The notes beneath the pieces are model-generated. The model saw nothing but the letters and a program-made list of their open reading frames with translations, ran no database searches and had not been told where the DNA came from. From NCBI GenBank assembly GCA_016180645.1, contig JACPAV010000024.1, positions 62,001 to 126,000 on the forward strand: a DNA stretch of 64,000 bases, read 5' to 3'. The DNA is from Nitrospirota bacterium (GTDB lineage: Bacteria; JACPQY01). This document shows positions 60,335 to 64,000 of the stretch, piece by piece; positions within the stretch are counted from its first letter, which is position 1, and every line of letters begins with the position of its first letter. A program made the translations under genes and the position numbers.

Positions 60335-61266
60335 TTATTGGGGTGTGAGGCGGGCTGAGTATAGGGTGTGTTGGATCGGCAAGTCGGCGGGATAGTCGAT
60401 CTTGCGCCGGGCTGCTTCGGTCATGAGGTGGTACGCGACCTCCACATCCAGGGTGTGGGATCCCGGCGCTCCGGCCACTCGTTCGGCGAATCTGAACGAG
60501 CGTTCCTTACCGGGGTGGAGCCGGTTGTCCCGAAGTTCGAGAATCATCGGACGCCAGAGGATCCATCGCTTCAGGGTATGAGTCTGCGTTCTGACCATGC
60601 TTCCGTCGGCTGCGTTCCGAAGCGTGAACGTGACCGTCACAAAGCGGTCGGGATCACCGGTCGGGAAAGTGTGACCTGCTCCTACGTTTGACAATTTCAA
60701 TTCAACGTCGATCGTGCCTCTCCCATTCTCAAACCGGCTGCGATCTTCCGGTTCGATGCTCACGGCCTTCCGGACCATGTCCCCATCATGCCCGCCTCTC
60801 CACAGGTGGCGTTTGGAAGGTCTCACCGGGCCGCCGAATGCCACGGGGCGCTCGACGGCAGGCATGTGACACTGGATGCAACCGTATCCCTGAACGGGGT
60901 CGTCCCTGACTTCCGCATAGGTTCCGCACGGCGGGCCGATGTAGAACATACCGGGGTCCTTCCCTTCCACCTCGTGGCAACGGCGGCACACACCGCCGCC
61001 ATCGAGAAATGAGGCATCCTGTCGAACCGGGTGAGGCGCCGCCGAATCCGCGTACGGGCCAACGATAACGCCGTCTTGAACGTGGCAGATAGCGCACGTT
61101 CCGAAACCGTGAAGATTCTCAGCGGGCCGAACAGGCGATAGCCCAGCGAACCCATCGACGCAACCAGCAGGGCGATCACCCCGATGGCGGCCTGACCGTG
61201 TGCGGACCATCCAACCCCGATCACCTTCCCCCACGGCGTTGTTGAATTCGGCCGGCTCCACAACAT
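60335..61266 (-). pseudogene. Triheme cytochrome c-like protein, frameshifted near the N-terminus
   Basis: The main frame encodes three CxxCH heme sites (FGTCAICH, VCRRCH, YGCIQCH), then a beta-rich C-terminal domain (NVGAGHTFPTGDPDRFVTV) common in periplasmic multiheme cytochromes. A start in that frame (ATG 61261) gives an Arg-rich, non-membrane N-terminus. The other frame from ATG 61266 encodes MLWSRPNSTTPWGK and a membrane anchor (AAIGVIALLVASMGSLGYRLFG) that should precede the heme domain. The two frames join near 61140, so a one-base indel (mutation or sequence error) is likely. It is the last gene of the leftward metal cluster, 13 nt after the selenoprotein gene. Confidence 0.65.
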
Positions 61267-61279
61267 CTTCAACGCAGCA

Positions 61280-61801
61280 CTAAGGCTTGAAGGAGAACGC
61301 ATCCAACGTGAGTGGCGGTTCCTTTTCGCCGGCGAATTCGAAGTGGCCGCGAACGGAAAGCGGCGATGGCCCCCGAGAGTGCGGGTCCGCCAGCAACTCG
61401 TGCAGCACTTCGTTTTGCGCCAAGCTCAAGCGTTGTTCACTGCCTGAGACGACGAAGAAGAACGAGAAACCTTGTCGGAGGAGGATTCCCTCGGCCTCGA
61501 TCCGCACCGCGCCGACTTTCTGCCCGGCCTTCTCTACCAATTGTCTTATCCTGGGGAAGTCGACGGGTTTCCCCGGCTTCGGGATGATTTCGGCCTTCTG
61601 CTTCTTGAGACTCACGTCCACGCGGTCCACGGTCGGTAACTTGGCGAGAGCCCGACGGGCCCCCAGCGCGCAGAACGGTCAGGTCATGCCGAGGACCTCC
61701 ACCTCGATCCGCATGATCTCGGCGCGGGATGGGAGGGGAACCGCCACGACGCTCAGCACGGAAGCGATGAAGAACATCTTGAAAAGGTCTCGGGGTTTCA
61801 C
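61280..61801 (-). CDS. Periplasmic MerP-like HMA-domain protein, predicted selenoprotein (TGA = Sec41)
   Basis: GTG 61801 has AAGGGA 7 nt upstream and gives a signal peptide (MKPRDLFKMFFIASVL...PSRAE). The HMA domain then reads VEVLGMT-[TGA]-PFCALGARRALAKL...VDRVDVSLKKQKAEI. The family consensus is GMTCxxC, so TGA (61681-61679) replaces the first metal-binding Cys exactly, leaving U-x-x-C. The same frame continues to 61280 with the HMA fold and a C-terminal domain (about 100-173). A bSECIS-like hairpin lies 22 nt after TGA. MerP/MerT-type selenoproteins are known from metagenomes. If TGA were a stop, the product would be a 40-residue fragment. Sec would make a soft-metal (Hg, Cu) site. Expression needs selABCD, not in this window. 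Confidence 0.82.
61645..61665 (-). promoter_or_regulatory. Bacterial SECIS-like stem-loop
   Basis: On the minus strand GGGGGCCC-GTC-GGGCTCTC folds into an 8-9 bp stem (with G-U pairs) and a GUC apical loop. The loop begins 22 nt after the UGA at 61679. Bacterial SECIS elements have a small loop with G in its first two positions 16-37 nt downstream of UGA, so position and loop both fit. Confidence 0.65.
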
Positions 61802-61814
61802 CGGTCGTCCCTTC

Positions 61815-62696
61815 TCAAAAGAGGGCGTACGCACCGGCGCGAATCTTCCGGTCCTGAGAAAGTTGTGTCCCATTCAAGTTCTCCCATAGTGGAAGTTGGT
61901 ATGAAATCTCGAAGGTGAAACGATCCATCAGGAAATACTGGATCCCGGGGGCCGCGAAGAGGGAGTTCCCACCCGAGTCGGTTATGGCCTGGTTGAAATG
62001 CCTTGACCGACCGGCGACCCCGCCGTTCAGTTCAAGCATGACATAGAATTCGGATCGCGCTTTTTCACTCGACAGCGCGAGGTATTCCGCGGAAAGGTTG
62101 ACGCCCACGACATGCCCTTGTCGCACCCCGCTGTTCGACCCGTTGAGTTGCCCGGCGGGTCCCGCGTAGATTCCCGCCTTCTTGTGTATGTACTGGAAGG
62201 GCAGGTCCCAGATGAAATCGTAGGAGCCGCTGCCGATGTTGTCTGCGCCCGTCGGGACTTTTACCCCGGCAGCCGGCCCGAATTGTAGGCGTGTCGAGGG
62301 GCCCAGACGTTTGAAGACATCCGGGGAATAGCGAGCGAGGAACACGGCTTCGCCGATTCCACTCGCCTCGCTGCTTGCACCGCTTGAATCGCGGGCTTCA
62401 GTTCGCACGTATGGAACAGCGGCCGCCAGGGTCAGATCTTCATTGACCGGGAATGCGCCCATGAGGCCGATGACCTGGGCTTCCATCTTGGGCCGGCTGC
62501 CGGGGATGTCCCCGGTGGTCCCAAGAAGCGTTTCCTTCCGAATGATGTCGGTGAAAACCCGCGCGAGTCCGACACCGGAAAAGAGCGTCTGGGCCGCCGA
62601 GCCTTGAATCGGCAAAGCGTGTGCCGTCGCCGCCATCGTAACCACAGCCCCCATCAGGAGCCCCAAAACGCGGGCCGGCCATTGGACGGATCTCAT
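61815..62696 (-). CDS. Outer-membrane beta-barrel, transporter-like
   Basis: The 293-residue protein has a Sec signal (VLGLLMGAVVTMAATAHA), a GVG..FT......-type N-terminus and repeated amphipathic strands (LTLAAAVPYVR; FLARYSPDVF; GPAAGVKVPTG; FTFEISYQLPLW). It ends AGAYALF with a terminal Phe, a Bam signal. It resembles the MetA/phenol-pathway 'transporter' barrels (PF13557-like) that often accompany metal or hydrocarbon genes. Start ATG 62696 has AGGA 5-8 nt upstream. It precedes the HMA selenoprotein by 13 nt in the same operon. Substrate unknown. Confidence 0.78.
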   Translation of the reverse strand: MRSVQWPARVLGLLMGAVVTMAATAHALPIQGSAAQTLFSGVGLARVFTDIIRKETLLGTTGDIPGSRPKMEAQVIGLMGAFPVNEDLTLAAAVPYVRTEARDSSGASSEASGIGEAVFLARYSPDVFKRLGPSTRLQFGPAAGVKVPTGADNIGSGSYDFIWDLPFQYIHKKAGIYAGPAGQLNGSNSGVRQGHVVGVNLSAEYLALSSEKARSEFYVMLELNGGVAGRSRHFNQAITDSGGNSLFAAPGIQYFLMDRFTFEISYQLPLWENLNGTQLSQDRKIRAGAYALF

Positions 62697-62744: not shown

Positions 62745-62939
62745 TCAACTCCTCTCTTTGGTTTTTCCTGAGAAGATCCAGGCCGCGCCGATCAGGCCGA
62801 CGGCCGTGAAGAGGCCGAGGCTCAGGAGACCGCTCGCGCCGTCGCGGGGGCAGAATGCGCCGCAGGCCCACGCCGTTCCGGCGTCCGCCAGAACGCCCGA
62901 AGCGGCGGCCCATGCCGTTGCTTTCACCATGAATTCCAT
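62745..62939 (-). CDS. Small two-TM membrane protein with CxxxC motif
   Basis: The 64-residue protein has an excellent SD (AAGGAGGTGA) 5 nt before ATG 62939. The sequence MVKATAWAAASGVLADAGTAWACGAFCPRDGA carries a Cys pair (CGAFC) between hydrophobic segments, and the second membrane helix is LLSLGLFTAVGLIGAAWIF. Small Cys-bearing membrane proteins are typical of mercury and copper clusters (MerF/MerT-like roles), but no family match is recognised. It lies between the CopZ-like gene and the outer-membrane barrel, in the same orientation. Confidence 0.7.
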   Translation of the reverse strand: MEFMVKATAWAAASGVLADAGTAWACGAFCPRDGASGLLSLGLFTAVGLIGAAWIFSGKTKERS

Positions 62940-63076: not shown

Positions 63077-63676
63077 TCAGCCGCATCCGCACGCACCGCC
63101 TCCGTCTTTCTTGGGAGGGTTCTCCGACCGTGGGGCACAGCATTCGGATACGTCGTTTGACGACCGTTCCGACGGCGCTTCGGTTTGGGACATAGCCTTT
63201 TGGACAACTTGTTTCACGTTGCCGAGGCAGCAAGCGCCTTGTGGATTAAGCTCTTCGCAGCGGTCCAACCCCTGACGGCATTTTTCGGCGATAGAGTCGA
63301 GCGCCCCGGATTTGCCCGTCCGCCGGACTTCCTCCTCGATGCTCCTAACGGTGTGCTCAAAGCAGTAGCAGACGGTCCTGGAATCTCCCGTCGATTTCTG
63401 AAACACGGGAACCTTGATGTCCCGGGCAACGAACCGGATGCCGTCGGCTTCGTGGAAATAGACGATTTCGCAAGCTCCGCCCTTGCAGAACCGATAACCG
63501 CCGGAACCGTTGAGGCACTTTAATGCGGCCTTGGTGAGCAAGGAAACAAGAGTGATCGTCTTGACCTTCCGCCCTTGGGTCCCGCAGGCGGGACAACGGT
63601 CCGAGATCACCCGGGTCGGTTCCGAAACGGATCGGTGGGGCGCGGTGTCTTCAGGATTCTCCATGGCGATCCCCAC
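63077..63676 (-). CDS. CopZ N-terminal-domain-like metal-binding protein
   Basis: The 199-residue protein shows RCPACGTQGRKVKTITLVSLL, GGYRFCKGGACEIVYF, IKVPVFQKSTGDSRTVCYCFEHTV, RRTGKSGALDSIAEKC and NPQGACCLGNV. These are the Cys ladders of the CopZ N-terminal domain of Archaeoglobus-type proteins, which binds zinc and a [2Fe-2S] cluster. There is no C-terminal HMA domain here; instead the tail is Cys-rich (ECCAPRSEN...GACGCG). The separate HMA protein at 61280 may supply that function. ATG 63664 is an alternative start. It overlaps the small membrane protein upstream by 26 nt. Confidence 0.82.
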   Translation of the reverse strand: MGIAMENPEDTAPHRSVSEPTRVISDRCPACGTQGRKVKTITLVSLLTKAALKCLNGSGGYRFCKGGACEIVYFHEADGIRFVARDIKVPVFQKSTGDSRTVCYCFEHTVRSIEEEVRRTGKSGALDSIAEKCRQGLDRCEELNPQGACCLGNVKQVVQKAMSQTEAPSERSSNDVSECCAPRSENPPKKDGGGACGCG

Positions 63677-63930: not shown

Positions 63931-64000
63931 TTACCAAGATTCACGTCGGCCCCTCAACTTGCGCAACAGGAAAGCTTGGTTACGTCCCGCTTGAACGAGA
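63931..64000 (-). CDS. Possible C-terminus of a gene starting beyond the window
   Basis: One minus-strand frame is open from the window edge to a TAA at 63931 and reads LVQAGRNQAFLLRKL then RGRRESW. It is basic and helical, as at the end of many small regulators, but only 22 codons are visible and the family cannot be judged. Confidence 0.2.
   Translation of the reverse strand, partial: LVQAGRNQAFLLRKLRGRRESW

Follow-up and report, generated by a model that had tools for sequence, protein, structure and literature searches.

A predicted selenoprotein with HMA and OB-like domains in a mer operon of a Nitrospirota bacterium

Organization of the locus

At this locus the reading was extended 12 kb along the contig beyond the window, the whole stretch of 64,000 nucleotides (64 kb) that was analysed. 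A same-strand run of genes encodes a MerT-HMA fusion, MerA, a CopZ-type metallochaperone, a small ORF, a barrel-like protein, a protein with an in-frame UGA and a triheme cytochrome c. The 3' end of merA lies at 63954-64000 (minus strand); merA and the merT-HMA fusion extend beyond the window edge (contig C24, L041:3954-5983). MerA scored 521.9 bits against the TIGR02053 cut-off of 454. The MerT-HMA fusion fell below the NF033556 cut-off but had MerT and HMA matches, so that MerA and MerT stand in one gene run, as in a mer operon. The CopZ N-terminal-type iron-sulfur metallochaperone (63077-63676, minus strand) scored 102.4 bits against the NF047645 cut-off of 100 and also matched the zf_CopZ Pfam family. 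Between it and the barrel gene lies a small ORF (62745-62939, minus strand; 64 aa, one hydrophobic segment, two Cys, no family match), possibly a small membrane protein of the mer operon.

The outer-membrane beta-barrel-like protein (61815-62696, minus strand) has no Pfam match itself; its homologues in genomes G074 and G191 match Phenol_MetA_deg (PF13557), and it is a conserved partner of the HMA gene that follows it. Directly downstream of the HMA gene is the gene of a triheme c-type cytochrome with three CxxCH motifs (60335-61261, minus strand), which contains an apparent frameshift near 61100-61140. Over 60335-61302 (minus strand), the three CxxCH motifs are out of frame with the membrane-anchor sequence, whose frame runs from 61302; this suggests an indel, due either to an assembly error or to a broken gene. 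Outside the window, contig C24 also carries a gene for a DsbD-like protein (L041:7647-8696); its nearest selenoprotein family is TsoB (390 of 805 bits), and no Sec codon is visible in it.

The UGA-containing gene

The predicted selenoprotein gene occupies 61280-61801 (minus strand; GTG start, TAG stop, 173 codons); its start lies 13 nt beyond the gene before it, which has the same orientation. From the GTG at 61801 to the TAG at 61282-61280, the sole internal stop is the TGA at 61681-61679, residue 41 of 173. The metal loop of the HMA domain reads GMT-U-PFC, with the UGA at the position of the first Cys of CxxC. The Pfam HMA domain (PF00403, 61520-61699, minus strand) spans the UGA; with the UGA read as Cys, it was matched at E 2.4e-8 and 34.7 bits, against a gathering threshold of 24.8. 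Ahead of it lies a signal-peptide-like N-terminus (KPRDLFKMFFIASVLSVVAVPLPSRA, 61721-61801, minus strand), read from the sequence with a predicted cleavage site; the N-termini of homologues are similar. The sequence-only reading of this DNA, which had placed the TGA at the first Cys of an exported HMA motif preceded by a signal peptide, was thus borne out.

The G+C content by codon position was 0.62/0.35/0.85 before the UGA and 0.65/0.42/0.77 after it, two patterns of the same kind. Scanning all 64 kb of the window gave three TGAs with a coding-like frame on both sides. Of the three, the TGA at 61681-61679 is followed by the longest open frame and shows the strongest coding periodicity; homology was demonstrated for this one alone. 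An antisense ORF at 61287-61889 (plus strand) was rejected on its codon-position GC pattern.

In an AlphaFold2 model built from a two-row alignment (mean pLDDT 70), the protein shows an HMA fold followed by five strands and a helix. Residue 41 stands where helix 1 begins, in the usual metal loop, and among single domains oxidised MerP (1osd) matched the structure best. This match and the surrounding mer operon support the earlier label of MerP-like. The C-terminal domain (61283-61513, minus strand; about 75 residues, five strands and one helix, no Pfam match) was also modelled alone (pLDDT 78). Foldseek matched it weakly to OB folds, NlpE among them (E >= 0.03), so that the designation OB-like is tentative. 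The best NCBIfam match of the protein is NF041115 (E 3.5e-11), at 43.1 bits against an equivalog cut-off of 95, and its motif is UxxC rather than the UxxU of that family. For the MerP equivalog TIGR02052 the score was 26.6 against 92.55 bits. With scores below both cut-offs, the protein is classed here as a variant of the Sec-HMA kind and not as a member of either of these curated families.

Selenocysteine machinery and SECIS-like hairpin

The genome from which the window derives encodes tRNA-Sec with anticodon UCA (73.3 bits), SelA (477.7 bits), SelB and SelD (356.9 bits), and so holds the complete machinery for selenocysteine. The SelD gene itself contains an in-frame UGA in the motif CAGUAGK (MKRLTALARCAGUAGKIGP), the usual Sec site of SelD; this gene is thus an independent witness for UGA decoding in the source genome. 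The same genome has an ordinary tRNA-Cys and a 92-nt tRNA-Cys(GCA) with a long variable arm (C22:24197-24287; L002:1501-1592), which passes the threshold of the tRNA-Sec model and resembles published selC* tRNA-Cys.

Published constraints for bacterial SECIS elements (bSECIS) call for a loop of 3-9 nt, a stem of 4-16 bp, a G in the first two loop positions, a spacing of 16-37 nt and an energy of -7.5 or lower (PMC13188914). They were applied here in a strict version with a contiguous stem. The hairpin with a GUC loop that the sequence-only reading had described is real: it lies at 61665-61645 (minus strand), has 9 bp and -12.7 kcal/mol, starts its loop 22 nt after the UGA, within the bSECIS spacing, and agrees with all four published constraints (PMC13188914). 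As a background, the same model was fitted by 48 (2.7%) of the window's 1806 TGAs, with both strands counted. The folding energy of the GC-rich stretch around the UGA was no better than that of dinucleotide shuffles, and was unexceptional against synonymous shuffles (fraction 0.71). The hairpin is therefore taken as supporting and not as decisive; as general folding energy failed as proof of a SECIS element, the constraint model with its measured background was used alone. The model was fitted by 9 of the 14 homologous genes with UGA described below, versus none of four Cys homologues. A recurrent hairpin with a GGA loop was also seen about 32 nt after the UGA, over the L-E-G-V codons, in the UGA genes at L061, L062, L046, L060 and L130; it may be a SECIS form shared among several UGA homologues.

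Homologues with UGA and Cys

Homologues were searched by protein in 192 genomes and by profile in further phyla, together with one Deltaproteobacteria MAG (L046); the profile searches by phylum were small, as the relevant phyla hold few genomes. Including the gene in the window, 14 HMA genes with an in-frame UGA were found in eight lineages, ten of them independent (about half identical or less within the domain). In each of the 14, UGA takes one of the two CxxC positions or both of them, and none has an in-frame UGA elsewhere inside the HMA domain. The UxxC form occurs in the window gene (GMTUPFC) and in G109 and G195 (GMTUGLC), and CxxU in G099 and G192 (twice in each; CVFU and CEKU) and in L046 (CVLU). 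UxxU is found in G074 and G224 (GMVUPTU/GMVUPVU), in G191 (GMTUGGU) and in L046 (GMTUGRU), and UxxT in G196 (GVVUGST). The gene of G139 (L060:9558-9782) reads GMTUPFTUP, with two UGAs of which the second is one codon off the CxxC position. Cys homologues have the loops GLSCPFC, GLACPFC and GLSCSFC. The UGA of the window gene aligns with Cys or with UGA in the same column of its homologues, with homology on either side, and the homologues do not end at this codon. The UGA is kept in four congener pairs, where dN/dS downstream of it is about 0.19, 0.13, 0.16 and 0.07, indicating purifying selection on the sequence past the UGA. Plasmid records yielded ordinary HMA domains only.

Either tRNA-Sec or SelB was found in every tested genome with a UGA gene except G191, in a test that covered genomes other than that of L046. 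Genome G191 is 98% complete and has its UxxU HMA gene in a mer-type locus, and gave no match to tRNA-Sec or SelB. SelB is also present in most genomes with Cys forms only, so that the machinery does not discriminate between UGA and Cys genomes.

The pair of barrel and HMA gene recurs in G074 (UxxU), G139 (Cys), G177 (Cys) and G191, where a Cys gene and the UxxU gene lie on opposite sides of the barrel. In G177 the same run holds the pair together with MerR, a CopZ-type protein and a MerT fusion. In G109 the UxxC gene is flanked by MerT and a MerA-like gene and comes behind genes for MerR and a thioredoxin-like protein; MerR, MerT or MerA also adjoin other UGA genes. In the window operon it is not the MerT fusion, which has Cys, but the separate exported HMA protein that bears the UGA.

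Proposed function and alternatives

The UGA at 61681-61679 is very likely read as selenocysteine, because of the frame, the Sec machinery, the restriction of UGA to the metal loop in homologues, the downstream purifying selection and the bSECIS fit. The gene lies in a mer operon, and mercury binding and relay are therefore its most likely function. It is probably a mer-operon selenoprotein whose Sec-Cys pair binds Hg(II) and relays it via the MerT fusion to MerA. As predicted from the sequence, SelB and tRNA-Sec would read through the UGA, directed by the hairpin 22 nt downstream, and the product would be exported and fold as a MerP-like HMA domain with an OB-like domain. The Sec41/Cys44 selenol/thiol pair would capture Hg(II) in the periplasm; operon and fold point to this metal. 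Hg(II) would then pass by ligand exchange to the HMA domain or cysteines of the MerT fusion, in a presumed order of transfer, and reach cytosolic MerA, where it would be reduced to Hg(0). In general, Hg(II) is bound more tightly and exchanged faster by selenolates than by thiolates. The adjacent outer-membrane barrel probably admits mercury or works with the HMA protein at the envelope. The frame, the Sec machinery, the UGA homologues, the downstream selection in relatives and the operon are observed; that Sec is inserted in vivo, which metal is bound, in what order it is handed on and what the barrel and the cytochrome do are inferred. The UxxU gene of G191 without a match to the Sec machinery, the scores below the MerP and NF041115 cut-offs, the unexceptional folding energy around the UGA and the presence of SelB in most genomes with Cys forms only are points against this best reading.

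As the MerT of the operon already bears an HMA domain, a second carrier may do something else. Sec could be inserted and the Sec-Cys pair be a thiol/selenol redox couple instead of a metal carrier; it might, for example, reduce a disulfide in the barrel or in MerT, or pass electrons to or from the cytochrome c. A redox function is assumed for most known UxxC/CxxU selenoproteins (PMC13188914), the cytochrome c gene is just downstream, DsbD-like and thioredoxin-like genes are nearby, and an oxidised form of the MerP HMA domain is known (1osd). Such a role is nevertheless unlikely: the fold is that of HMA and not of thioredoxin, mer-type operons hold the Cys homologues and several of the UGA homologues, and UxxU, CxxU and UxxC all occur, as expected of a two-ligand metal site. 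There is only a slight chance that the bound metal is copper, silver or another soft metal and that the mer genes are mere neighbours. Binding of Cu(I) is common among such HMA domains, and a CopZ-type metallochaperone is within the operon; against this stand MerA above its equivalog cut-off with a MerT fusion in the same gene run, and the pairing of the gene with MerR, MerT or MerA in other lineages.

It is highly improbable that the UGA is a true stop, leaving a 40-residue secreted fragment or a decaying gene. This exact gene is carried by one genome only and its hairpin energy is unremarkable, but homology and coding periodicity run more than 130 codons past the UGA, UGA occurs in the same loop of ten independent genes, and the downstream sequence of relatives points to purifying selection. 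A Cys codon turned into TGA by a sequencing or assembly error is equally improbable; the apparent frameshift in the cytochrome gene means that the contig may contain errors, but chance would be very unlikely to strike the one codon at which relatives also carry UGA, in a genome that decodes Sec and ahead of a hairpin that fits the model. Decoding as cysteine by a selC*-type tRNA-Cys can practically be dismissed: the unusual 92-nt tRNA-Cys resembles tRNA-Sec and some selC* tRNA-Cys elsewhere bear a UCA anticodon (PMC7609411), but here the anticodon is GCA, which reads UGC/UGU, and the only UCA tRNA found is tRNA-Sec.

Beyond the mercury-binding selenoprotein proposed above, a wider and rather improbable scheme can be drawn. 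The barrel, the exported Sec-HMA/OB protein, the MerT fusion and the c-type cytochrome might form a selenium-dependent mercury relay at the envelope that differs from the classical uptake by MerT and MerP; the selenol would speed capture and hand-over of Hg(II), and Sec and Cys versions would interchange across lineages.

Relation to known systems

In 2008, a table drawn from ocean metagenomes named MerP with Sec, with two sequences (PMC2398784). NF041115 is listed as 'metal-binding protein (putative mercuric reductase)', a predicted selenoprotein with UxxU, and a 2026 review lists selenoproteins of the MerT type, P-type ATPases and UxxU metal-binding proteins, whose roles need investigation (PMC13188914). 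The unusual selenol/thiol metal site proposed in the sequence-only reading is supported as a prediction, while its novelty was overstated: Sec in an HMA metal-binding protein is not new and was already predicted for short relatives.

NF041115 shares with the window protein an HMA-type domain with Sec in the CxxC loop, but its model is a single 74-residue UxxU domain, whereas the window protein has UxxC and an extra OB-like domain. The ocean Sec-MerP (PMC2398784) likewise has a predicted Sec in a periplasmic mercury-binding HMA protein; the window protein is larger, and the ocean MerP is given there by name in a table. MerP (TIGR02052) is similar in its exported HMA domain, mer operon and MerP-like fold (1osd), and differs from the window protein, which has Sec for the first Cys and an additional C-terminal domain. 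The MerT/CopZ fusion-like heavy-metal transport selenoprotein NF045683 and the MerT-type selenoprotein PF02411 (PMC13188914) also have Sec in mercury or heavy-metal import genes, but in the membrane MerT or a fusion, unlike the separate exported HMA protein described here. In a literature search that lay largely outside subscription literature, no paper was found on the HMA/OB architecture or the barrel pairing, nor any biochemistry on such Sec-HMA proteins. New are the combination of HMA and OB-like domains and the conserved pairing of a barrel with an HMA protein, the latter with Cys or with Sec, in mer-type loci of distant lineages.

Selenium is one of the strongest biological ligands of mercury, and a main target of mercury toxicity. 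If the proposed reading is true, Sec in the metal loop of this detoxification protein would act as a metal ligand in transport instead of in catalysis, which is rare. Such a role of Sec was proposed by the 2026 review, which called it in need of study (PMC13188914). The natural series of UxxC, CxxU, UxxU and CxxC within one family would offer ready variants for measuring the contribution of selenium.
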